64,000 nucleotides of DNA from Elusimicrobiota bacterium. GTDB lineage: Bacteria; Elusimicrobiota; UBA8919. The notes beneath the pieces were generated by a model. It was not told the DNA's origin and searched no databases. It saw nothing but the letters and a program-made list of their open reading frames with translations. Numbering within the stretch: position 1 is the first letter of the stretch; each line of letters begins with the position of its first letter. The DNA is taken from NCBI GenBank assembly GCA_028718185.1, contig JAQUMH010000003.1:148811-212810 (forward strand), written 5' to 3'. This document shows, piece after piece, positions 13,914-29,673 of the stretch. Position numbers and translations under genes: made by a program.

Positions 13914-13942
13914 TTGACAAATATTTTATTTTTAATTATAAT
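13914..13942 (+). promoter_or_regulatory. Consensus sigma-70 promoter of the ANTAR gene
   Basis: TTGACA at 13914-13919 and TATAAT at 13937-13942 are separated by exactly 17 bases, a perfect match to the housekeeping consensus. Transcription would start near 13949, at the first base of the P1 hairpin. Confidence 0.85.
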
Positions 13943-13948
13943 TATACT

Positions 13949-14023
13949 AAAGCACATTGAAAGTGTTTTAAAAAAACAAAGGCAAAGATGTCTTTTGACA
14001 ATAAGCGTCAGAAGGCATTTTTT
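13949..14023 (+). promoter_or_regulatory. ANTAR-type antitermination leader (P1, P2 and overlapping terminator)
   Basis: P1 (13949-13969) is a 7-bp stem AAAGCAC/GTGTTTT with loop ATTGAAA, having A at 1 and G at 4. P2 (13983-13997) is a weak stem around loop GATGTC. The intrinsic terminator (stem 13989-13999 with 14007-14017, 11 bp, then six T) uses the right side of P2, so P2 and the terminator exclude each other. This is the layout of ANTAR-protein RNA targets. The gene downstream encodes an ANTAR protein, suggesting autoregulation. The 7-base P1 loop departs from the canonical hexaloop. Confidence 0.65.
13989..14023 (+). terminator. Intrinsic terminator within the ANTAR gene leader
   Basis: Stem TGTCTTTTGAC/GTCAGAAGGCA with loop AATAAGC (two G-T pairs), followed by TTTTTT and ATT. 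It lies inside the leader and would stop transcripts unless P2 is stabilised. Confidence 0.75.
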
Positions 14024-14087
14024 ATTATCCTTGCCGAACGGCAAGGATAATCCCCCCGTTTAGATTTACTTTAGTAAATCTGGGGGG
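14024..14087 (+). promoter_or_regulatory. Two consecutive strong hairpins in the ANTAR leader
   Basis: First hairpin: perfect 12-bp stem ATTATCCTTGCC/GGCAAGGATAAT with GAAC loop (14024-14051). Second: CCCCCC at 14052-14057 and GGGGGG at 14082-14087 flank an inner stem ATTTAC/GTAAAT with a TTTA loop and a bulged GTTTAG. A related second hairpin lies at 18079-18114. The G run would be the only ribosome site for the TTG start at 14095, so folding may limit translation. Confidence 0.6.
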
Positions 14088-14094
14088 ATCAAAT

Positions 14095-15339
14095 TTGGGT
14101 GAGTGCTTCAGAATCTTCAATAAAATGAATATAAGATTAAAACCGGAAAAAGAAAACCAGATATTGAGAAAAATCACTCAAACTATAAGTTGTAACTTGA
14201 ATTTGGAAGAAGTATTGAAACAAATAGTAGAAATGGTTATACAAGTTACAAAAGGAGATGCTTGCCTGTTATATCTTCTTAATGACAAAAAGGAAGAATT
14301 AACTTTGCGTGCATCTAAAAATCCACATCCGAAAATATTAGGTAAAATAAAAATCAAAGTAGGGGAAGGGATAACTGGTTGGGTGGCAAAAGAGAGGAAA
14401 CCCGTAGCAATATCCAAAAATGCAAGTGATGACCCGAGGTTTAAGTTTTTTCATAATCTTCCGGAAGATAAATATGATTCTTTTCTTTCCGTGCCTATTA
14501 TAAGCAGGAATGTAATAATCGGTGTAATTAATGTACAACATAAGCGTTCTCATACACATAGTTCGAATGAGATTGCACTTCTTTCTACTGTAGCCCAGCA
14601 GGTAGGCTTTGCTATAGAGAATGCAAGATTATATGAAGAGACTAAAAAAATAACCGTACAGATAGAAACTTTAGCAGAAGTCAGCAAGGCTATTGTTTCT
14701 AACCGGTACCTGAAAGAGATACTTCATTTGGTAGTTACAATGACAGCTGAAATGATGAATTCAAAGATATGTTCGATAATGTTACTTGATGAGAAGAAGC
14801 AAGAGTTGACTATTGAAGCGACACAAAGTAATATTGAGGAATATATTAAAAAAGCTCCCTTGAAAGTTTCTGAAAGTATCAGTGGTAAAGCGGTGAGAGA
14901 GAAAAAACCAATCACTGTTTTAGATGTCACTAAAGAACCCGGGTATAAATATCAGCAATTGGCAAAGAAAGAAGGTATATGTTCAATGCTAGTTTTGCCG
15001 ATGATGGTTAAAGAAAAAGCTATTGGCGTAATAAATATTTATACTGCTGTTGAACATAGGTTTACTGAAGATGAGATAAAAATATTACAATCTGTGGCTA
15101 ATCAGGCTGCGGTAGCCATTGAGAACACAAAATTGATGGAAGAAACTTTAGCTGCCAAAGAAGCGTTGGAGATACGTAAATTAGTTGAACGGGCTAAAGG
15201 TATATTAATGAAAGAAACGGGAATGGACGAAGATAAGGCATACAGGATAATTCATAAGAAAAGCATGGATAGTTGTAAGCCGATGAAAGAAATTGCCGAA
15301 GCAATTATTTTGAGTTCAGAAATAAAGACCAAAATCTAA
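14095..15339 (+). CDS. GAF-GAF-ANTAR RNA-binding antiterminator
   Basis: This 414-aa protein has two GAF sensor domains (about residues 33-178 and 203-346) and a C-terminal ANTAR domain (357-409) with the RKLVERAKGILMKETGMDE signature. ANTAR domains bind twin small hairpins in nascent RNA and prevent termination. GAF domains may sense a small nitrogen metabolite. The gene has its own consensus promoter and its own ANTAR-like leader. The start is uncertain: a TTG at 14095 has GGGGGG upstream, while an ATG at 14125 lacks a ribosome site. Nearby nadE and amt leaders carry matching RNA elements. Confidence 0.92.
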   Translation: MGECFRIFNKMNIRLKPEKENQILRKITQTISCNLNLEEVLKQIVEMVIQVTKGDACLLYLLNDKKEELTLRASKNPHPKILGKIKIKVGEGITGWVAKERKPVAISKNASDDPRFKFFHNLPEDKYDSFLSVPIISRNVIIGVINVQHKRSHTHSSNEIALLSTVAQQVGFAIENARLYEETKKITVQIETLAEVSKAIVSNRYLKEILHLVVTMTAEMMNSKICSIMLLDEKKQELTIEATQSNIEEYIKKAPLKVSESISGKAVREKKPITVLDVTKEPGYKYQQLAKKEGICSMLVLPMMVKEKAIGVINIYTAVEHRFTEDEIKILQSVANQAAVAIENTKLMEETLAAKEALEIRKLVERAKGILMKETGMDEDKAYRIIHKKSMDSCKPMKEIAEAIILSSEIKTKI

Positions 15340-15385
15340 AAACCCTTCTCAACTCTTTTTTCTCCTTAAGGGAGAAGATTTCTCA

Positions 15386-15450
15386 TTTCTTTCCTCTCCC
15401 CCGATGGGGAGAGGATAAAAGGTGAGGGGGTAAATTATAAGACTTTTAGC
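15386..15450. repeat. CCTCTCCCC...GGGGAGAGG repeat, copy 3
   Basis: The hairpin at about 15393-15414 is followed by ATAAAAGGTGAGGGGGTAA and ATTATAAGACTTTTAGCG, closely matching copies at 4472, 10440 and 17294. It lies just upstream of the nadE leader hairpins. Confidence 0.7.
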
Positions 15451-15489
15451 GTACAAGTCTAAAAAAATTACATATAGAGTTAAGTTGAT

Positions 15490-15538
15490 GGGCATTGATG
15501 TCCTTGGGTTCCTCTGATTTGGAACAAAGGGCATTTTT
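15490..15538 (+). promoter_or_regulatory. ANTAR-type hairpin overlapping a terminator in the nadE leader
   Basis: A small hairpin GGGC/GTCC (15490-15503) presents the hexaloop ATTGAT, with A1 and G4 as in ANTAR targets. Its right arm is also the left arm of a terminator whose stem pairs 15498-15512 with 15521-15534 and is followed by TTTTTATTT. The first hairpin of the expected pair is less clear; AGACTT/AAGTCT at 15440-15460 with a 9-base loop containing AGCGTA is the only candidate. Confidence 0.55.
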
Positions 15539-15540
15539 AT
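15498..15540 (+). terminator. Intrinsic terminator before nadE
   Basis: The left arm ATGTCCTT-GGG-TTCC and right arm GGAAC-AAAGGGCAT pair around an 8-base loop with one small internal loop, then a T run. It lies 12-18 bases before the nadE start, so it acts in the leader, not behind the ANTAR gene alone. Confidence 0.65.
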
Positions 15541-15552
15541 TTGGAGTATGAT

Positions 15553-17232
15553 ATGGAAAATAATTTACGTTTAGCTTGTGTCCAGTTAAATTGCATAGTT
15601 GGTGATTTGGAGGGTAATTGTAAAAAAATAATTGGATATATCCAAAAGGCAAAAGAATCAGGGGTTGATATAATCTCTTTCCCGGAGTTGGCTATTACCG
15701 GATATCCTCCTGAAGATTTATTGTTCAATCCTAAATTCATTAAAGATAATTTAAAAAAGTTAAAAGAGATATCTAAATCAACAAATAATATTGTGGCATT
15801 AGTTGGTTTTGTAGACAGAAGAGTAAAAGACATTTATAATGCCGGTGCTGTAATTCATAATAGCGAAATAAAGGGAATATATCACAAAATGTTTTTACCA
15901 AACTATGGTGTTTTTGATGAAGAACGTTATTTTATTTCAGGGAACGAACCATTGGTTTTTAAATTCAACAAATTAGTTTTTGGTGTAAATATTTGTGAAG
16001 ATATATGGCATATAGATGAACCGACAAAATCGCAAGTTTTATCTGGTGCAGGTTTGGTTCTTAACATTAATGCTTCACCATATAATATGGGTAAACTTAG
16101 AGAAAGAGAAAAAATTATTCAAAAACAAGCAAAAGATAATCATGTCTGGATTGCTTATACTAACTTGGTGGGTGGTCAAGATGAGCTAATTTTTGATGGG
16201 CAGAGTATGATTGTTGATAATAATGGTAAAATAATTGCCAAAGCAGAAGCATTTAAGGAAGATATGCTAATAGTAGATTTAAATATTTTACCATGTAAGA
16301 ACATACCATCAAAAAGTGTAATTGTGGTTACAGACAAGCTATTGCATAAAAATAAGCCTTCATTATTAAAAAGAGAAACTAAGCCGTTGGAACCTGTTGC
16401 AGAAGTATATCAGGCTTTAGTACTGGGACTAAAAGATTATGTATCTAAAAATGGTTTTCAAAAAGTTGTTATTGGTTTAAGTGGTGGAATTGATTCCTCT
16501 TTGGTTGCATCTTTAGCGGTCGACGCTTTAGGAAAAGATGATGTAGTTGGAATATTTATGCCTTCACGTTATTCTTCTCAAGAATCAAAAATTGATGCGG
16601 AACAATTGGCACAAAATTTAGATATAAAATTAATAAAAATATCAATTGAACAGATATATAAAATTTACTTAAATATTTTTAAACCGCATTTTTCAGGATT
16701 GGGAAAAAATATAACAGAAGAGAACTTGCAGGCACGAATTAGGGGCAACATTTTAATGGCATTCTCCAATAAATGTGATTGGCTTGTCTTAACTACCGGA
16801 AATAAATCTGAGATGAGTGTAGGATATGCTACTCTTTATGGAGACATGGCAGGAGGCTTTGCAGTAATTAAAGATGTTCCTAAAACATTGGTTTATAAGT
16901 TAGTTCAATATAGGAATTCTCTTGGTTTGGTTATTCCTGAACGTGTACTAATAAAGGAACCTACAGCTGAACTTAGACCAAACCAAAAGGATACAGATAC
17001 ATTACCCCCATATAATACGTTAGATACGATTCTGAAAGCATACATTGAGGAAGATAAAGATTTGGATGAGATTATCTCTTTAGGATTTGACAAAGATATC
17101 GTATTTAAAGTATTGACTATGGTTAATAAAAGTGAGTATAAACGCAGACAGTCACCTCCGGGAATTAAAATTACACCCAAAGCATTTGGTAAAGACCGGA
17201 GGATACCGATTACAAATAGATATAAAATGTAA
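15553..17232 (+). CDS. nadE: Glutamine-dependent NAD+ synthetase
   Basis: The N-terminal nitrilase-fold glutaminase has the triad Glu45 (FPELA), Lys112 (YHKMFLP) and Cys148 (NICEDIW). The C-terminal synthetase domain has the ATP pyrophosphatase P-loop LSGGIDSS near 309-316. It amidates nicotinate adenine dinucleotide with glutamine nitrogen. ATG at 15553 has GGAG six bases upstream; a TTG at 15541 gives four extra residues and is less likely. Placement behind an ANTAR-type leader ties it to nitrogen status. Confidence 0.95.
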   Translation: MENNLRLACVQLNCIVGDLEGNCKKIIGYIQKAKESGVDIISFPELAITGYPPEDLLFNPKFIKDNLKKLKEISKSTNNIVALVGFVDRRVKDIYNAGAVIHNSEIKGIYHKMFLPNYGVFDEERYFISGNEPLVFKFNKLVFGVNICEDIWHIDEPTKSQVLSGAGLVLNINASPYNMGKLREREKIIQKQAKDNHVWIAYTNLVGGQDELIFDGQSMIVDNNGKIIAKAEAFKEDMLIVDLNILPCKNIPSKSVIVVTDKLLHKNKPSLLKRETKPLEPVAEVYQALVLGLKDYVSKNGFQKVVIGLSGGIDSSLVASLAVDALGKDDVVGIFMPSRYSSQESKIDAEQLAQNLDIKLIKISIEQIYKIYLNIFKPHFSGLGKNITEENLQARIRGNILMAFSNKCDWLVLTTGNKSEMSVGYATLYGDMAGGFAVIKDVPKTLVYKLVQYRNSLGLVIPERVLIKEPTAELRPNQKDTDTLPPYNTLDTILKAYIEEDKDLDEIISLGFDKDIVFKVLTMVNKSEYKRRQSPPGIKITPKAFGKDRRIPITNRYKM

Positions 17233-17293
17233 CAGGTGTCTGCTTATATAGACCCCTCAACTCTTTTTTCTTCTTAAGGGAGAAGATTTCTTG

Positions 17294-17360
17294 TTTCTTT
17301 CCTCTCCCCGATGGGGAGAGGATTAAAGGTGAGGGGGTAAGTTATAAGACTTTTAGCAGA
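17294..17360. repeat. CCTCTCCCC...GGGGAGAGG repeat, copy 4
   Basis: The hairpin at 17301-17321 is followed by ATTAAAGGTGAGGGGGTAAG and TTATAAGACTTTTAGC. Its tail extends into a palindrome CTTTTAG-CAGA-CTAAAAG (17348-17365) just before the sigma-factor gene. Confidence 0.7.
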
Positions 17361-17394: not shown

Positions 17395-17904
17395 ATGGAA
17401 TTTAAAAAAGTATTGGAAGAGTTTTATCCTAAACTTAGGGGAATAGCTAGGAAGTTTAACGGATATTTGCAATTTGTTGATGAAGACGATTTATTACAAG
17501 AAATGTCTATTTACTTGTTGGAAAAGTGGGAACAAGATAAATTCAAGGGAAAGACTGAAAGTTACCTGATGCAGGGCTGCTGGTTTCATATTAAGAATTA
17601 TTTAAGAACGGTTAATGATAAGGTAAATATTGTAAGTATTGATGAACCGATTAATAGTGATGGGACAACACTTAATGAAATAATACCGGATAATTCTCAA
17701 CTTCTTTCTGAAATAATTGCATATAAAATATATATCAAAATAGTTAAAGCAAACGGTCTCACAAAAAGAGAGAAAGAAGTACTTGTTTTTTGTTTAAACG
17801 GGTACACGTTGAGAGAGATTGGCAATAAATTAAAAATTTCCTTCGTAAGAGTAGCCAGAATCCGTAAGAATATTTGTAAAAAATGGAGTAGTAAAATGAA
17901 TTAG
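17395..17904 (+). CDS. Sigma-70 family RNA polymerase sigma factor (ECF-like)
   Basis: This 169-aa protein carries a region 2 helix (DEDDLLQEMSIYLLEKW, about residues 29-45) and a region 4 helix-turn-helix (LTKREKEVLVFCLNGYTLREIGNKL, about 121-145). No anti-sigma factor gene is adjacent. TTTGGAGGTGATGG precedes the ATG. Its position between nadE and the amidotransferase-amt operon suggests a role in nitrogen control (inference), though it could also be an unrelated regulator. Confidence 0.82.
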   Translation: MEFKKVLEEFYPKLRGIARKFNGYLQFVDEDDLLQEMSIYLLEKWEQDKFKGKTESYLMQGCWFHIKNYLRTVNDKVNIVSIDEPINSDGTTLNEIIPDNSQLLSEIIAYKIYIKIVKANGLTKREKEVLVFCLNGYTLREIGNKLKISFVRVARIRKNICKKWSSKMN

Positions 17905-17959
17905 GGGGTTTACAAAATCACCATTTTTTTACTTGTATAAGTAGAAAGAGAAGTTAATC

Positions 17960-18004
17960 GGACCTATTGACGGGTCTATGAAGTAAAGAGAACGTAGACG
18001 TTCT
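17960..18004 (+). promoter_or_regulatory. ANTAR-type twin hairpins in the amidotransferase-amt leader
   Basis: P1 (17960-17977) is GGACCT/GGGTCT with the hexaloop ATTGAC, showing A1 and G4. P2 (17989-18004) is a perfect AGAAC/GTTCT stem with the hexaloop GTAGAC, showing G4 but G instead of A at 1. The linker is 11 bases. P2 shares 17999-18004 with the terminator that follows, so forming P2 would release transcription. This is the clearest of the three leaders. Confidence 0.72.
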
Positions 18005-18040
18005 ATCAACCAGTGGTGGATAGAGCGTTTTTTATTTTTT
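17999..18040 (+). terminator. Intrinsic terminator in the amidotransferase-amt leader
   Basis: Stem 17999-18011 (CGTTCTATCAACC) pairs with 18015-18027 (one G-T pair, one A-G mismatch), loop AGT, followed by TTTTTTATTTTTT. Its left arm overlaps P2 of the ANTAR-type element. Confidence 0.85.
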
Positions 18041-18078
18041 CGCAGAAAAAAATACCCCCCTGCCAGTTTTGCGTCAGT

Positions 18079-18114
18079 CCCCCAGTTTAGTTCCGATTTA
18101 TCGGAACTGGGGGG
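18079..18114 (+). promoter_or_regulatory. C-run/G-run hairpin related to that of the ANTAR leader
   Basis: CCCCCAG and CTGGGGG flank a bulge TTTAG and an inner stem TTCCGA/TCGGAA with loop TTTA. The copy at 14052-14087 keeps the bulge, the loop and the outer runs but has inner stem ATTTAC/GTAAAT, so the pairing is kept while the bases differ. Confidence 0.6.
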
Positions 18115-18162
18115 ATAAAAACTAGGGGGGTGCTTAATAGTGTGTCCTAAGGAGGTAAAACA

Positions 18163-18933
18163 ATGTGTAGAATGTTAGGGGTTATTTCAACAAATAAAAT
18201 TTCACCGTTATGGCTTGAGAGTTTTCAGGAACTTGCAGTTAGAGGTAGAATAAAAAATACAATGTCCGAAGGTCATTATGATGGCTGGGGAGTTGCAGGT
18301 TATCTTGGTAAATGGGCGGTTCATTTTGGTAGAAGTGAAAAAAGTGCTATTAGTGATTCTGATAATTTTCTTATTGCAACTGAAAAAGCAATGATGTCAA
18401 GCACAAAAATTTTAATAGCACACTTAAGAAAAGCATCAGAAGGGGATAAAATAATTGAAAACACCCATCCTTTTATCAAGGATGATTGGATTTTTTGTCA
18501 TAACGGGACGATTTATAACTCGGAAAGATTATTAATGCCCGGGTGTAAATATGAAGGGACAACTGATAGTGAAAGATTTTTTAAATTCTTAATTGATAGA
18601 CTTGATAAGAAAAGTGTAAAAGATTATAAGGAAACAATTAGAGACGTTATCAGTGAAATTGAAAGTAAATGTAAATTTACATCTCTTACATTCCTTTTAA
18701 GTGACGGTAAAAATATGTATTGTTATAGAGGTTTTGCGGAAGATGAGAATTATTACACCCTTAATTATTCATTTTATAAAGGTCTGTTTTTGGTTTGTTC
18801 GGAAGAACTTCGTGGTTTTGAATGGAAAGAAATGAAAAATGGTGAAATAGTAGTAGTTAATAAATACGGACTTATTGAAAATGAATCTGAAGAGGTTTGT
18901 AAAAAAATATTTTTATGTTCATTTAAGTATTAA
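18163..18933 (+). CDS. Class II glutamine amidotransferase (YafJ-like)
   Basis: This 256-aa protein starts MCRMLG, placing the N-terminal nucleophile cysteine at residue 2 after Met removal. The Ntn glutaminase motifs HLRKAS and FCHNGTIYN follow. There is no synthetase domain, so the acceptor for the released ammonia is unknown. It is the first gene behind the ANTAR-type leader and leads an operon with ammonium transporters. AAGGAGGT gives a firm start. Confidence 0.88.
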   Translation: MCRMLGVISTNKISPLWLESFQELAVRGRIKNTMSEGHYDGWGVAGYLGKWAVHFGRSEKSAISDSDNFLIATEKAMMSSTKILIAHLRKASEGDKIIENTHPFIKDDWIFCHNGTIYNSERLLMPGCKYEGTTDSERFFKFLIDRLDKKSVKDYKETIRDVISEIESKCKFTSLTFLLSDGKNMYCYRGFAEDENYYTLNYSFYKGLFLVCSEELRGFEWKEMKNGEIVVVNKYGLIENESEEVCKKIFLCSFKY

Positions 18934-18950
18934 CGTTGGAGAATAATATA

Positions 18951-19673
18951 ATGAGAAAAAAATTATTTATTTTGGTTCTACTAATTACTAATTATTATTC
19001 GGTATTTACTGCTTTATTTGCTACACCTTCAACCGTTTTTTGGACTCCGTGTACACCGTATTTCCAGCCTTATATGAAAGGGCATATTACATATGATACA
19101 TATGTTAGAACTAAAAGTGCCATGCCGGTAGATTATGGTTTCACAACGGGAGTTTTACCATTTAAAAAAATACAGATGGAAATCGGATATGATGCTTTTT
19201 TACCGGTTCCTACTCCAGAAGAGCAACATTATCTAAATGCCAAAATTGGTTCACCGGAAGGTGAATTGTTACCGGTAGGTTTTTCTTTAGGTATGTTCTC
19301 AAAAGGAGTCAGAAGCGGAGTAACCGATTATGATATATGGCATTTAGATATAGGTAAGACCTTTAAATCTGGAAGTTTTTCTGCAGGTTATTATTCAGGG
19401 AATAAAAGCCTTCTCGTAGATGAAAAAGGAAAAACAGATAACACTGGTTTTATGTTGGGTTATCTTTCCCCGCAGTATAAGAAATTTATTTTTGCTTTTG
19501 ATTATATGAGCGGCAAAAATTCCTTTTCAGCAACAGGTTTTGGATTATATACCTATTTTGCTGATAATGTGACTTTACTCACTGGTCCGGTGTTCCCTTT
19601 AGCAAAGACATTTTACGGTGGTGATAAAATGACATGGACGCTTCAGCTTGACATTGATTTTGATATAAAGTAA
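18951..19673 (+). CDS. Exported protein, probable outer-membrane beta-barrel
   Basis: The ATG at 18951 (GGAG upstream) begins a signal peptide MRKKLFILVLLITNYYSVFTALFA. The mature part of about 215 residues alternates polar and hydrophobic residues with many Gly/Tyr/Phe turns and ends in IDFDIK, as in barrel strands. No catalytic motif is seen. Lying between the amidotransferase and Amt genes, it may be an outer-membrane pore for a nitrogen compound (inference). I do not recognise the family. Confidence 0.7.
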   Translation: MRKKLFILVLLITNYYSVFTALFATPSTVFWTPCTPYFQPYMKGHITYDTYVRTKSAMPVDYGFTTGVLPFKKIQMEIGYDAFLPVPTPEEQHYLNAKIGSPEGELLPVGFSLGMFSKGVRSGVTDYDIWHLDIGKTFKSGSFSAGYYSGNKSLLVDEKGKTDNTGFMLGYLSPQYKKFIFAFDYMSGKNSFSATGFGLYTYFADNVTLLTGPVFPLAKTFYGGDKMTWTLQLDIDFDIK

Positions 19674-19684
19674 CGGAGGTTTAT

Positions 19685-21244
19685 ATGAAATTTAAAATTT
19701 CTATTTTTCTATTTGGTTTAATTATAATTGGTTGTTCGTTCTTACCTATGTTGATGGCTGCTTCAAATCCTGATTCTGCGGGTTCAAATACTGGCGGAAT
19801 TATGGATGTCTCTGCTTCAGTTGTCGGTAAGCCGACAATAGAAGAAGTAGCTCAGGTTGCAGGACATAATAGGGTGGCAATTAACTTTGTTTGGGTGCTT
19901 GTCGCCGGGTTTCTTGTTATGTTCATGCAGCCGGGATTTGCAATGGTTGAGACGGGTCTGACTCGCGCAAAAAATGTTGCTCACACTATGGGGATGAATT
20001 TCCTGATTTACCCGTTGGGTATGTTAGGATTCTACGTCTGTGGGTTTGCCCTGATGTTTGGAGGTATGGGTGCTATCGGAACATTAGGAGGATACGCCGG
20101 GTTAAATCATGAAGTTACCATTAGCTTATTCGGGAAATCATTTGGTTTATTTGGAGCAAAGGGATTTCTCTTGACAGGTTCATCTTATGATGTAGCGATA
20201 TTTACACTTTTTCTCTTTCAAATGGTATTTATGGATACTACTGCTACAATTCCAACCGGTGCGCTTGCCGAGAGATGGAAATTTATTGCATTTTGTATTT
20301 ATGGTGTTTTTGTCGGGACCATAATCTATCCGATTTTCGGTAACTGGGTATGGGGTGGTGGTTGGCTGGCTATGTTAGGCCAGAATTTTCATCTGGGTCA
20401 TGGGCATGTAGATTTTGCCGGTTCATCCGTAGTACATATGTGCGGAGGAGTGATTGCTTTGGTAGGAGCATGGATTGTGGGCCCTCGTTTAGGTAAATTT
20501 AACCGTGATGGAAGCGTTAATGCAATTCCCGGCCATAATATACCTATGGCTGTTGTTGGAACATTTATTCTTGCTTTTGGGTGGTTTGGTTTTAATGCCG
20601 GTTCCACATTGGCTGGAACAGATTTGCGTATTGGGGTCATTGCAGTTAATACTATGCTTGCATCGGCAACGGGAGCAGTGGCTTCAACATTGTGGATGTG
20701 GATTGTCCGCACTAAGAAACCGGACCCCAGTATGATGTGCAATGGTATGTTGGCAGGGTTGGTAGCAATTACCGCTCCCTGTGCATTTGTCAATTCTGTT
20801 AGTGCATGTATTATAGGTTTTATCGCAGGAATATTGGTTGTGGAGTCAGTTTTCTTCGTTGACAGTAAACTAAAAATTGACGATCCGGTGGGTGCTATAT
20901 CAGTTCACGGTGTAAACGGTGCATGGGGTTGTTTCGCTCTAGGACTTTTTGCCGATGGTTCCTATGGTGACGGATGGAACGGTGTCGCCGGAACGGTTAA
21001 AGGATTATTTTACGGTGATGCTTCACAGTTTATAGCTCAGAGTATAGGAGTAATTTCTAACATCATTTATGTAGGATTAGTTTCATTGATTATTTTCAAG
21101 CTTATTGAATTTTTTGTTGGCAATCGTGTGGAACCGGAAAAAGAAATATCAGGATTGGATGTCCCGGAAATGGGAGTTCCCGGATATTCCGGAGTAAAAC
21201 TTGACAAGCATTCGGAAACACCTATTGCTATACAGAAATTTTAG
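19685..21244 (+). CDS. amt: Ammonium transporter, Amt family
   Basis: This 519-aa protein has an N-terminal signal-like segment followed by a loop and about 11 membrane helices. Amt landmarks are visible: FAMVETGLTRAKN, DTTATIPTGALAERWKF, the pore His in SSVVHMCGG and the second in ISVHGVNGAWG. It conducts ammonium across the inner membrane. A PII gene follows 26 bases later, the usual amtB-glnK pairing, so PII probably blocks it under nitrogen sufficiency. Members with this N-terminal extension are common. Confidence 0.95.
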   Translation: MKFKISIFLFGLIIIGCSFLPMLMAASNPDSAGSNTGGIMDVSASVVGKPTIEEVAQVAGHNRVAINFVWVLVAGFLVMFMQPGFAMVETGLTRAKNVAHTMGMNFLIYPLGMLGFYVCGFALMFGGMGAIGTLGGYAGLNHEVTISLFGKSFGLFGAKGFLLTGSSYDVAIFTLFLFQMVFMDTTATIPTGALAERWKFIAFCIYGVFVGTIIYPIFGNWVWGGGWLAMLGQNFHLGHGHVDFAGSSVVHMCGGVIALVGAWIVGPRLGKFNRDGSVNAIPGHNIPMAVVGTFILAFGWFGFNAGSTLAGTDLRIGVIAVNTMLASATGAVASTLWMWIVRTKKPDPSMMCNGMLAGLVAITAPCAFVNSVSACIIGFIAGILVVESVFFVDSKLKIDDPVGAISVHGVNGAWGCFALGLFADGSYGDGWNGVAGTVKGLFYGDASQFIAQSIGVISNIIYVGLVSLIIFKLIEFFVGNRVEPEKEISGLDVPEMGVPGYSGVKLDKHSETPIAIQKF

Positions 21245-21270: not shown

Positions 21271-21609
21271 ATGAAGAAAATAGAAGCTATAGTGCGTCCT
21301 GCAAAATTAGAATCCATTAGACAATCTTTGGAGGAAAGCGGTTTTCCGGGTTTAATGGTTACGGAAATAGAGGGTTGTGGTAAACAAAAAGGGATAGACC
21401 AGCAGTGGCGTGGTAAAAAATACAAAGTAGAACTTTTGCCGAAAATAAAAATAGAGATAGTAGCTAAAGACCAAGATGTAGAACGTATTGTCAAGGTTAT
21501 AAGTGAAACTGCAAAAACCGGTGCAATCGGGGATGGTAAGATATTTATATACAACATAGAAAATGCAATAAGGATTAGGACTGGTGAAAAAGGAGACATA
21601 ACAATTTAA
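21271..21609 (+). CDS. glnK: PII nitrogen regulatory protein, paralogue 1
   Basis: This 112-aa PII protein has a classical T-loop with RGKKYKVELLPK; Tyr51, the usual uridylylation site, is present. GAIGDGKIFIYNIENAIRIRTGE is the C-terminal signature. It senses ATP/ADP and 2-oxoglutarate and should regulate the Amt encoded just upstream. The start has TGGAGG seven bases before the ATG. Confidence 0.95.
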   Translation: MKKIEAIVRPAKLESIRQSLEESGFPGLMVTEIEGCGKQKGIDQQWRGKKYKVELLPKIKIEIVAKDQDVERIVKVISETAKTGAIGDGKIFIYNIENAIRIRTGEKGDITI

Positions 21610-21891: not shown

Positions 21892-23259
21892 ATGAAAAAG
21901 TTGTACGGTTTATTTTTTGCGGGTTTAGTATTTTTGTTTTCTGGAATTGTTTTTGCGGAAAATGTAAAATTATTGCCGACTCAAATAACTGTGGAAAAAA
22001 GTGCACAAGCAGTTTCATCTGTGCTAGTTACAAAAGTTGATAGCGGCGATACGGCGTGGGTTCTTATCTCAACTGCACTTGTCATGCTCATGACTTTGCC
22101 CGGACTTGCTTTTTTCTACGGCGGGCTTGTCAGAAAAAAAAATGTTTTAAGTATTTTAATGCAATGTGCTGTAATGCTTTGTGTGATAAGTTTACAATGG
22201 GTTTTGTTCGGATATAGCCTTTCTTTCGGTCCTGACAAAGGTTTCTGGGGTGGTTTTAAATGGTTTGGTTTAAGCGGGGTCGGTCTTGAGCTGTATCCAG
22301 GATACTCAAGTACTATTCCACATCAGTTATTTATGATATTTCAAATGATGTTTGCGGTTATAACACCGGCGCTTATCATAGGCGCTTTTGCGGAAAGAAT
22401 GAAGTTTTCTGCTTTCCTTCTATTCAGTATTTTATGGACCACGTTTGTATATGACCCCATGGCTCACTGGGTTTGGGGTTTGGGTGGTTGGTTAAGAAAT
22501 ATGGGAGCTTTAGATTTTGCAGGTGGAACAGTTGTTCATATTAATGCCGGTATAGCGGCTATAGTTACCGCTTTAGTAATAGGTAAAAGGAAAGATTATT
22601 CCACACCTATACCCCCGCATAACTTACCGTTTACGTTACTTGGTGCCGGACTTTTATGGTTTGGCTGGTTTGGTTTTAATGCGGGAAGCGCTTTAGGTGC
22701 AAATGGGTCAGCAGTTAATGCTTTTGTTGTGACAAATACTTCAGCTGCAGCGGCAGGATTAACATGGGCTGTTCTGGAATGGTTATTCAATGACAGACCG
22801 ACTACTTTGGGTGTTGCAACCGGAGCTGTTGCAGGGTTGGTTGCTATAACACCGGCATCGGGCTTTGTGAGTGCGACCTCCGCTATTGCAATAGGGTTTT
22901 TTGTCAGCATATTCTGTTTTATAATGGTTGCAGTTGTAAAACCTAAATTCGGATATGATGATTCACTGGATGCTTTTGGTGTTCATGGAATTGGCGGAAT
23001 TTGGGGTGCCCTTGCGACAGGACTTTTTGCTTCAAAAGCAATCAATTCTTCCGGTGCTGATGGATTGTTTTATGGTAATCCTGCCCAGTTCATTATTCAG
23101 TTGAAAACCGTATTGGTGACGATAATTTACAGTTTTATTGTTACATTGATAATATACAAGCTTGTTGATGTCTTAATCGGTGTTCGGGCTAAAGATAAAG
23201 AAGAAGTAATCGGGCTTGACCTTACCGAGCATCATGAAAGTGCCTATACAGTACTATAA
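21892..23259 (+). CDS. amt: Ammonium transporter, Amt family, paralogue 2
   Basis: The ATG at 21892 has AGGAG upstream; an earlier TTG adds eight residues. The 455-aa product has a cleavable signal peptide (FFAGLVFLFSGIVFA) and the Amt helices: LPGLAFFYGGLVRKKN, TPALIIGAFAERMKFS, GTVVHINAG and the pore His of FGVHGIGGIWGALATGLFA. It differs from paralogue 1 in the periplasmic loop and the N terminus. It is followed by a second PII gene. Confidence 0.95.
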   Translation: MKKLYGLFFAGLVFLFSGIVFAENVKLLPTQITVEKSAQAVSSVLVTKVDSGDTAWVLISTALVMLMTLPGLAFFYGGLVRKKNVLSILMQCAVMLCVISLQWVLFGYSLSFGPDKGFWGGFKWFGLSGVGLELYPGYSSTIPHQLFMIFQMMFAVITPALIIGAFAERMKFSAFLLFSILWTTFVYDPMAHWVWGLGGWLRNMGALDFAGGTVVHINAGIAAIVTALVIGKRKDYSTPIPPHNLPFTLLGAGLLWFGWFGFNAGSALGANGSAVNAFVVTNTSAAAAGLTWAVLEWLFNDRPTTLGVATGAVAGLVAITPASGFVSATSAIAIGFFVSIFCFIMVAVVKPKFGYDDSLDAFGVHGIGGIWGALATGLFASKAINSSGADGLFYGNPAQFIIQLKTVLVTIIYSFIVTLIIYKLVDVLIGVRAKDKEEVIGLDLTEHHESAYTVL

Positions 23260-23383: not shown

Positions 23384-23725
23384 ATGAAACTGGTAATAGC
23401 AATAATTCAACCAGACAGACTTGAAGAAGTAAAAAAAGAGCTTTATAAAAAGGAGGTTAATCTTATTACAGTCAATGAGGTTTTAGGACACGGCAAGCAG
23501 ATGGGTGTAACAGAAGTATATCGCGGTGTTAAAGAAAGCGGTAATTTACTGAGAAAAGTAAGGCTTGAAATCGCCGTAAACGAAATGTTTGTCCAACCCA
23601 CAATTGACGCAATCATCGCCGGCGCGAGAACAGGCAATGTCGGCGACGGCAAAATATTTGTTTTGGATTTAAAGGAATGCATCCGGATAAGGACAGGTGA
23701 AAAAGGAGGTGAAGCAATCGGATAA
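23384..23725 (+). CDS. PII nitrogen regulatory protein, paralogue 2 (no Tyr51)
   Basis: This 113-aa PII protein has the usual GNVGDGKIFVLDLKECIRIRTGEKG end, but the T-loop reads YRGVKESGNLLRKV, so residue 51 is Glu rather than Tyr. It cannot be uridylylated at the usual site. Its T-loop resembles the variant common next to Amt or GS genes in anaerobes. AAGGAGGT precedes the ATG. It probably controls amt paralogue 2 or glutamine synthetase, whose gene follows. Confidence 0.93.
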   Translation: MKLVIAIIQPDRLEEVKKELYKKEVNLITVNEVLGHGKQMGVTEVYRGVKESGNLLRKVRLEIAVNEMFVQPTIDAIIAGARTGNVGDGKIFVLDLKECIRIRTGEKGGEAIG

Positions 23726-23811: not shown

Positions 23812-23832
23812 ATTTTAATAGGGGGTTTGTTT

Positions 23833-25155
23833 ATGAAGACGAAAAATGATGTTTTGGCAATTGTAAAGAAGGAGAATGTAAAGTTTATCAAGTTGTGGTT
23901 TGTGGATATTCTTGGACAGTTGAAATCATTCACAATTACACCGAGAGAACTTGAAGGCGCTCTTTCGGAAGGTATGGGATTTGATGGTTCGTCCATTGAA
24001 GGTTTTGCGAGAATTTTCGAATCGGATTTAATTGCTAAGGCGAATCCGGAAACATTTGAAATATTACCATGGAGACCTCAAGATGAAAAAGTTGCCCGTA
24101 TGTTCTGTGACATATTGAATCCTGATGGTACGCCGTATGACGGGGATACAAGATATATTTTAAAGAAGAACCTGGAAGAAGTAAAGAAACTTGGGTTTAC
24201 ATTTAATGTAGGACCGGAATTAGAATACTTTTATTTTAAATCTGATAAATCGCCGGAAATTATTGATGAAGGCGGATATTTTGATTATGTGCCTTTGGAT
24301 GAAGCGCATGATTTAAGAAGAGATACGGTACTCTATCTTGAAAAAATGGGGATAAAAGTTGAATATTCGCATCACGAAGTTGCACCTTCACAGCATGAGA
24401 TAGATTTGCGTTATAATGATGCGATTACCATGGCAGATAATGTTATGACATATAAAGTAGTTGTTAAACAGGTTGCCTATTCCAAAGGGCTTTATGCTAC
24501 TTTTATGCCGAAACCTTTGTTTGGAAAGAACGGTTCCGGTATGCATGTTCATCAATCATTGTTTAAAGGGAATAAAAATGCTTTTTTTGATGCAAAAGAT
24601 AAATATCTTTTATCTCCGCTTGCAAAACATTATATAGCAGGCGTATTAAAGCACGTTCCTGAAATATGTGCAATAACTAACCAGTGGGTCAATTCTTATA
24701 AGCGTTTAGTCCCAGGTTACGAAGCACCGGTTTATATATCATGGGCAAGAAGGAACCGCTCGGCGCTTGTCAGAGTTCCGATGTATAAGCCCGGTAAAGA
24801 AGTTGCAACCAGAATTGAGTTGCGTTTTCCTGACCCGGCTTGCAACCCGTATCTTGCATTTTCTGTAATGCTTGCAGCAGGTCTTGATGGGATTAAGAAC
24901 AAATATCCTTTGACCGAACCAATCGAGAAAGATATATTTCATATGAATGAAACGGAACGTAGAAAAGAAAAAATATTTTCACTTCCCGGTTCTTTGATTG
25001 AAGCTATAGAACTTGCTGAGAAGAGCGAACTTTTAAAAAAAGCACTTGGTCAACATGTGTTTGAGAAATTTATAGAGAACAAAAAAATAGAATGGGATAT
25101 GTATCGTACCCAGATAACAGGTTACGAAATAGAGAAGTATTTACCTGTTCTGTAA
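23833..25155 (+). CDS. glnA: Glutamine synthetase type I (GSI-alpha-like)
   Basis: The ATG at 23833 has GGGGG seven bases upstream; a TTG adds only two residues. The 440-aa product has the beta-grasp motif GFDGSSIEGF, the ATP/Glu loops NGSGMHVHQS and RRNRSALVRVP, and RIELRFPDPACNPYLAF. The length and the end MYRTQITGYEIEKYLPVL fit the GSI-alpha group, which is usually feedback-regulated and not adenylylated. It fixes ammonium imported by the two Amt proteins. Confidence 0.96.
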   Translation: MKTKNDVLAIVKKENVKFIKLWFVDILGQLKSFTITPRELEGALSEGMGFDGSSIEGFARIFESDLIAKANPETFEILPWRPQDEKVARMFCDILNPDGTPYDGDTRYILKKNLEEVKKLGFTFNVGPELEYFYFKSDKSPEIIDEGGYFDYVPLDEAHDLRRDTVLYLEKMGIKVEYSHHEVAPSQHEIDLRYNDAITMADNVMTYKVVVKQVAYSKGLYATFMPKPLFGKNGSGMHVHQSLFKGNKNAFFDAKDKYLLSPLAKHYIAGVLKHVPEICAITNQWVNSYKRLVPGYEAPVYISWARRNRSALVRVPMYKPGKEVATRIELRFPDPACNPYLAFSVMLAAGLDGIKNKYPLTEPIEKDIFHMNETERRKEKIFSLPGSLIEAIELAEKSELLKKALGQHVFEKFIENKKIEWDMYRTQITGYEIEKYLPVL

Positions 25156-29157: not shown

Positions 29158-29673
29158 TTAATGCCATTCCGAATATATCTCACTGTCTTCTTTGAAAGGG
29201 TGATTTTCAATATATTTTGCCTTTTCATTGAAATCCTGTTCATTGCGAATTATATGGTCATAATAAGATCGCTGCCATATCATGTCCGCCTGTTTTTTCT
29301 TATAATGAAAACCAATCATGTCCGCGTAGGGGCGGGCTTGCCCGCCCATTGTTTGGTCGCATTCTTTGCGAACCATTTGGGTTATTTTTACCTTTGATAT
29401 GCCGATATATTGTGATAAATTTACTTTTCTTTCTTCCGGTAAAGTTACAAGTCCATGAATATGGTCTATCGTAATCACAATTACATGTATTGTTACATCT
29501 TTTATCGTTGAAAGATTCTTAAAAATATCAATTGTTTTATTGCGAATAAATTCAGCATTGAATATTACTGCCCGTTTAAACGTACAAATTGTAAAAAAAT
29601 ATGAACCCGGTAAAAAATAATCCCAGGTTTTAAGGCGTAAAGAATTTTTACGATAATTTTCAGATAAATTCAT
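29158..29673 (-). CDS. REP-associated tyrosine (Y1) transposase, RAYT
   Basis: This 171-aa IS200-like Y1 transposase has the HUH motif in DHIHGLV (residues 70-76 approximately) and the catalytic Tyr in WQRSYYDHIIRNE near residue 136-143. RAYTs are single-copy domesticated transposases linked to palindromic REP sequences. Between the HUH and Tyr motifs the protein contains an unusual segment, TMGGQARPYADM, encoded by the palindrome GGGCGGGC-TT-GCCCGCCC. Further palindromes of this type lie just upstream of the start and near the end of the neighbouring gene. The protein is probably intact. Confidence 0.9.
   Translation of the reverse strand: MNLSENYRKNSLRLKTWDYFLPGSYFFTICTFKRAVIFNAEFIRNKTIDIFKNLSTIKDVTIHVIVITIDHIHGLVTLPEERKVNLSQYIGISKVKITQMVRKECDQTMGGQARPYADMIGFHYKKKQADMIWQRSYYDHIIRNEQDFNEKAKYIENHPFKEDSEIYSEWH
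29330..29347. repeat. REP-like palindrome inside the RAYT gene
   Basis: GGGCGGGC-TT-GCCCGCCC preceded by CGCGTAG, the same as 29746-29763. It encodes part of an extra loop of the transposase in frame. Confidence 0.8.

Follow-up and report, generated by a model that had tools for sequence, protein, structure and literature searches.

What controls an operon in which a stand-alone glutamine amidotransferase gene is followed by genes for ammonium transporters and PII proteins? Ahead of this operon, at 17960-18040 of the window (the whole 64-kb stretch of DNA analyzed here), lie two small hairpins, the second of which overlaps an intrinsic terminator. ANTAR-responsive dual-hairpin attenuators were described by Ramesh et al. 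2012 (PMC3369931) for EutV/eut of Enterococcus faecalis, NasR/nasF and AmiR/amiE, and ANTAR control of nitrogen genes is already known from that work. We consider it highly probable that the 17960-18040 leader acts as an ANTAR-responsive transcription attenuator, in which default termination is relieved by a GAF-GAF-ANTAR protein, and that it belongs to a single nitrogen regulon.

Anatomy and predicted stability of the leader

The leader comprises a putative recruitment hairpin (P1), a linker, and a putative antiterminator hairpin (P2) that excludes the terminator (Table 1). A preliminary description of this DNA had reported the two loop sequences, the 11-base linker, and a strong terminator with a 13-base stem and a T6AT6 tract; all of these can be read directly from the DNA. 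The 13 pairs of the terminator stem join 17998-18007 with 18019-18028, plus an inner ACC/GGT; the predicted folding energy of the hairpin (17998-18028) is -17.8 kcal/mol, and T6AT6 (18028-18040) lies 3' of the stem. The 5' arm of the terminator uses P2: 7 nt (17998-18004) are common to both structures, not six as first reported. When the 258-nt intergenic region (17905-18162) was shuffled 3000 times with its dinucleotides preserved, P2 with a terminator arose 27 times, and P1, P2 and terminator together only 5 times.

To call this a clear twin hairpin, as was done at first, is a slight overstatement: both hairpins are present, but the closure of P1 and the first position of the P2 loop are non-canonical. 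Both loops carry G at position 4, and the P1 loop begins with A, while the P2 loop begins with G. Folded alone, P2 slightly prefers a TAGA tetraloop (-5.0 vs -3.2 kcal/mol), since G1 can pair with C6 within the loop. An Rfam scan of the whole window at gathering thresholds returned no family match, and the element was therefore modelled anew in this analysis.

Table 1. Leaders and genes of the nitrogen island (window positions; hairpin loops in square brackets)
Feature	Position	Strand	Remarks
ANTAR-gene leader	13948..14025	+	R2 model match 36.1 bits, E=1.6e-5
GAF-GAF-ANTAR regulator	14095..15339	+	only ANTAR protein encoded in the genome; real start probably ATG at 14125
nadE leader, hexaloop hairpin GGGC[ATTGAT]GTCC overlapping terminator	15488..15541	+	R2 model match 32.6 bits, E=8.3e-5
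Glutamine-dependent NAD synthetase, nadE (CN_hydrolase + NAD_synthase)	15541..17232	+	
ECF-type sigma factor-like protein	17395..17904	+	separate ANTAR leader before the orthologue in relative G011
P1 (recruitment) hairpin GGACCT[ATTGAC]GGGTCT	17960..17977	+	6 bp, the closing pair being U-G; -6.5 kcal/mol alone
Linker P1-P2	17978..17988	+	11 nt
P2 (antiterminator) hairpin AGAAC[GTAGAC]GTTCT	17989..18004	+	canonical AC/GU closure, G at loop position 4
Intrinsic terminator	17998..18040	+	excludes P2; R2 model match 30.0 bits, E=2.9e-4
Stand-alone class II glutamine amidotransferase (GATase_4)	18163..18933	+	first gene of the operon
Outer-membrane-like protein (OMP), family unknown	18948..19673	+	homologues behind ANTAR leaders in L134, L156
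Ammonium transporter Amt1	19685..21244	+	
PII protein	21271..21609	+	
Ammonium transporter Amt2	21892..23259	+	
Second PII protein	23384..23725	+	
Glutamine synthetase GlnA	23827..25155	+	

Conserved features in related loci

Related GAF-GAF-ANTAR loci were selected on the similarity of their proteins, with RNA playing no part in the choice; ANTAR-bearing relatives were selected on the presence of the domain. Two of the related loci bear the label Elusimicrobia, so that the window's phylum is probably Elusimicrobiota. A simple scan was made for G4 hexaloop hairpins that overlap a terminator, and it yielded 75 matches, compared with 9 in shuffled DNA; when an upstream A1/G4 hexaloop was also required, 33 matches remained, compared with none. 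Loop position 4 is G in all 72 related P2 loops, and position 1 is G, as in the 17960-18040 leader, in 13/72. Of the 72 related terminator-overlapping hairpins, 63 are closed by AC/GU, whereas P1 of the present leader is closed by U-G. The terminator covaries at 10 of 12 pairs, and the P2 stem covaries independently of it: 92% of its cells are paired, as against 35-55% when the stem is slid, and there are 6 double changes.

These features have a known counterpart: EutV requires both G4 and AC/GU closure, and its induction was reduced or abolished by changes in the closing pair or by deletion of P1 (PMC3369931). The conserved G4, the AC/GU closure, the overlap with the terminator and the compensatory changes match the EutV features, and default termination relieved by an ANTAR protein is therefore the best-supported reading.

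The closest structural match to the 17960-18040 leader precedes glnA in G011, with P1 loop ATTGAA, P2 loop ATAGAC and a linker of about 11 nt. Genes 3' of matches in relatives include the ANTAR gene, orthologues of the window's amidotransferase, sigma factor, outer-membrane protein, nadE and amt; glutamate synthase (gltB), glutamine synthetases of types I and III (glnA among them), glutamate dehydrogenase (gdhA) and carA follow others, the glutamine synthetases and glutamate dehydrogenase being named by reading translations. The gene order ANTAR-nadE-(OMP)-amt-PII is found again in Nitrospirota, where a leader lies between ANTAR and nadE. Porin-like genes for outer-membrane proteins also have ANTAR leaders in genomes of the Nitrospira type (L034, L043, L063, L074).

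Is the first hairpin required?

The non-canonical closure of P1 raises the possibility that the ANTAR protein acts here through the P2 hexaloop alone and that P1 is irrelevant in this leader. This is a sub-case of the main reading, its probability being contained in that of the main reading rather than added to it. The nadE leader, in which no recognisable P1 was found, points the same way, as do the many relatives without P1, and the structure of EutV has led to the minimal ANTAR motif being redefined as a single hexaloop (PMC8934654). On the other hand, P1 at 17960-17977 forms a hexaloop on a perfect 6-bp stem and is normally spaced, the glnA leader of G011 combines this layout with a canonical P1, and a canonical P1 is kept in 31/37 Nitrospirota leaders. 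We regard a dispensable P1 in this leader as possible but rather unlikely.

Across the window's phylum the balance is different: in contrast to Nitrospirota, only 5/32 leaders keep a canonical P1, or 8/32 if 7-nt loops are allowed. In 7/35 leaders (0.46 expected), the distance from the end of a promoter scoring at least 10/12 to the hexaloop element is 4-22 nt, leaving no room for P1. Leaders with a consensus promoter a few bases 5' of the hexaloop are L115, L103, L141, L113:7645 and L189 (G002 carA and gdhA), and some relatives' leaders carry another hexaloop-terminator unit, which lies 45-89 nt further downstream. These patterns suggest, with the odds about even, that part of the ANTAR regulon of this phylum works without P1: transcription would start at a single terminator-overlapping hexaloop, sometimes accompanied by a second hexaloop-terminator unit, and one hexaloop per terminator would suffice for antitermination in vivo. 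Because the promoters are predicted and not mapped starts, we infer this variant rather than observe it.

Recognition without the window, and co-occurrence with ANTAR

Could the element simply terminate the nadE-sigma factor unit, as a plain intrinsic terminator decorated by chance hairpins and free of ANTAR control? It does lie directly 3' of the sigma factor-like gene, and a promoter search found no clear sigma70 promoter directly 5' of the leader, which may therefore sit inside a longer transcript. The conservation of the 5' arm of P2, with compensatory changes, argues against a plain terminator, since this arm is dispensable for termination; so does the rarity of the full arrangement in shuffled sequence. 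The same is true of a covariance model (A2, R2) built from 18 non-window leaders, with no window sequence included: its top three matches in the window are the 17960-18040, ANTAR-gene and nadE leaders (E 1.6e-5 to 2.9e-4). The orthologous amidotransferase gene of G002 is also preceded by two ANTAR leaders.

The distribution of the RNA across genomes bears on the same question. In a survey of 199 genomes of the phylum, 61 encode an ANTAR domain and 25 have an RNA model match, and all 25 are among the 61 (25/61 ANTAR-positive vs 0/138 ANTAR-negative genomes; Fisher p = 2e-15, on a raw count that ignores shared ancestry). The model used for this comparison included the window leaders, and some of the surveyed genomes contributed training sequences; with eight training genomes set aside, the nesting of RNA-positive within ANTAR-positive genomes remained intact (p 8e-12). 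With the matches thus confined to ANTAR-bearing genomes, we find a plain terminator improbable. An attenuator governed by another factor (riboswitch, T-box or ribosome stalling) would explain attenuator-like architecture ahead of biosynthetic and transport genes, but it is less probable still, given the absence of an Rfam match in the window, conserved features that are those of ANTAR targets, and co-occurrence that tracks the ANTAR domain.

The regulator

The ANTAR reading of the leader requires a cognate protein, and its gene ends 2.6 kb upstream of the leader, as the preliminary description had noted. The C-terminal ANTAR domain (PF03861) scores 71.0 bits against a curated cut-off of 27.3 and aligns by sequence with EutV, NasR and PdtaR. 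The methionine plug and one contact lysine, as described in PMC8934654, are retained. Aligned with the contact residues of EutV, the protein keeps K143 and M172 and has K147 replaced by R, R168 by H, N173 by D, R175 by C and R177 by P. These changed contacts, the U-G closure of P1, a nadE leader without a recognisable P1 and the failure to find a clear sigma70 promoter directly 5' of the 17960-18040 leader count against the ANTAR reading.

The first GAF domain is most like the GAF domains of PtsP. A whole-protein fold search gave general tandem-GAF matches and identified no ligand; our leading guesses are that the GAF domains might sense 2-oxoglutarate, glutamine or a contact with PII.

A probable single regulon, in the island and beyond it

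The leader of the ANTAR gene has a P1 with a seven-base loop, TAAAGCAC[ATTGAAA]GTGTTTTA, and a P2, AAGGC[AAAGAT]GTCTT, followed by a terminator; a perfect sigma70-type promoter (TTGACA-17-TATAAT, 13914-13942) lies 5' of it. ATTGA had been put forward as shared by the best loops of all three leaders of the island. It is indeed present in all three, but at different positions: in P1 of the ANTAR-gene and 17960-18040 leaders and, in the nadE leader, in the hairpin that overlaps the terminator. The idea that ATTGA alone is a common binding motif was rejected, since a loose pattern based on it is as frequent in the window as in shuffles; the informative features are G4 and AC/GU closure.

The preliminary description had also proposed that the three leaders form one regulon in the island, with a genome-wide covariance search for the ATTGA-loop twin hairpin and terminator as a check. 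Across the whole genome, the window-including model R1 found only the three window leaders and one other, ahead of carAB on another contig (G000:C1:255668-255714, minus strand, equivalent to L128 1500-1547). This match (E=0.05) was initially doubted but was later supported by the leave-window-out model; it also comes with a consensus promoter and a P1 whose loop is AAGGAA, two features outside the model, and in the same-family genome G002 carA likewise follows a leader (C14:107-160). These sequence features make the carAB leader a probable fourth ANTAR leader of this genome. The attenuator reading and a common regulon are both supported by the leave-window-out model, by the nesting in ANTAR-positive genomes and by the same RNA before orthologous genes in relatives, but the regulon is wider than the island. 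No attenuator was found upstream of the genome's own gltB, nor a separate leader for glnA.

The amidotransferase is distantly similar to EgtC, to GlmS N-terminal domains and to an uncharacterised solved protein; it retains catalytic-looking residues, and its linkage to amt is kept in a relative. The preliminary description had suggested that the operon may couple ammonium uptake with glutamine breakdown; such a role of the amidotransferase is possible. In several relatives, the amt cluster and the gene for the ECF-like sigma factor are linked.

Several repeats were observed in the same region. A direct repeat of ~105 nt (94-96% identical) occurs 5' of the nadE leader (15348-15450) and 5' of the sigma factor gene (17256-17357). 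A GC-rich palindrome with a variable core, CCCCC(A/C)GTTTAG..CTGGGGGG, lies directly 3' of two attenuators (14051-14108 and 18078-18135); it was rejected as part of the switch: the genome has four copies, and two of them, at argF-like and metK/ahcY-like sites, have no attenuator. A short single-gene IS200-like (Y1) transposase at 29158-29673 (minus strand) may be of the type that mobilizes palindromic repeats.

Proposed mechanism and relation to known systems

We infer the following events of protein binding, antitermination and signalling. By default, the RNA would fold into the terminator, and RNA polymerase would halt before the GATase-OMP-Amt-PII(-Amt-PII-GlnA) operon. An active GAF-GAF-ANTAR dimer would bind first to the loop of P1 and afterwards to the hexaloop of P2; by holding P2 closed, it would prevent the terminator from forming and allow transcription to proceed. 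The same protein would act on its own leader, in positive autoregulation, and on the nadE and carAB leaders, tying these units into one nitrogen-assimilation regulon that is probably turned on under shortage of fixed nitrogen.

The leader resembles the EutV, NasR and AmiR attenuators (PMC3369931) in having two small hexaloop hairpins with G4 in both loops and A1 in that of P1, a linker within 5-12 nt, a P2 that overlaps an intrinsic terminator, a cognate ANTAR gene nearby and targets in nitrogen metabolism. It differs in the G that begins its P2 loop and in the U-G closure of P1; the regulator differs in having two GAF domains and no receiver domain, and the targets in including nadE, a stand-alone amidotransferase, an outer-membrane protein, a sigma factor and carAB. 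In many bacteria, genes for Amt, PII, glutamine synthetase and glutamate synthase have already been predicted to have ANTAR RNAs upstream, with nitrogen regulons in Desulfotomaculum, Pelobacter and others (PMC3369931); there, as here, one ANTAR system is placed over several nitrogen units (amt, PII, glnA, glutamate synthase), but in phyla other than that of the window. A passage of PMC4676874 mentions NitR, an antiterminator of ammonia assimilation in clostridia, and compares a clostridial receiver-ANTAR protein with it; judged from that passage, the present system is similar in placing ammonia-assimilation genes under antiterminator control and different in its GAF-GAF-ANTAR protein without a receiver domain and in its amt, PII and nadE targets.

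The phyla named as having ANTAR systems in a passage of the commentary PMC3369936 are Actinobacteria, Bacteroidetes, Firmicutes and Proteobacteria, and the relevant passages of PMC3369931 and PMC3369936 name neither the window's lineage nor Nitrospirota. What appears to be new, then, is the lineages, several of the targets, the carAB leader outside the island, and relatives apparently without the first hairpin. The results extend predicted ANTAR antitermination, as a form of nitrogen control, to the window's phylum, a lineage whose regulation is little studied, and to Nitrospirota, and they supply a concrete regulon: ANTAR, nadE, GATase-amt-PII and carAB, with glnA, gltB and gdhA in relatives. 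Further bioinformatic analysis of single-hexaloop motifs has been called for (PMC8934654); the leaders of relatives that lack P1 offer natural test cases for how far ANTAR function through a single hexaloop may reach.
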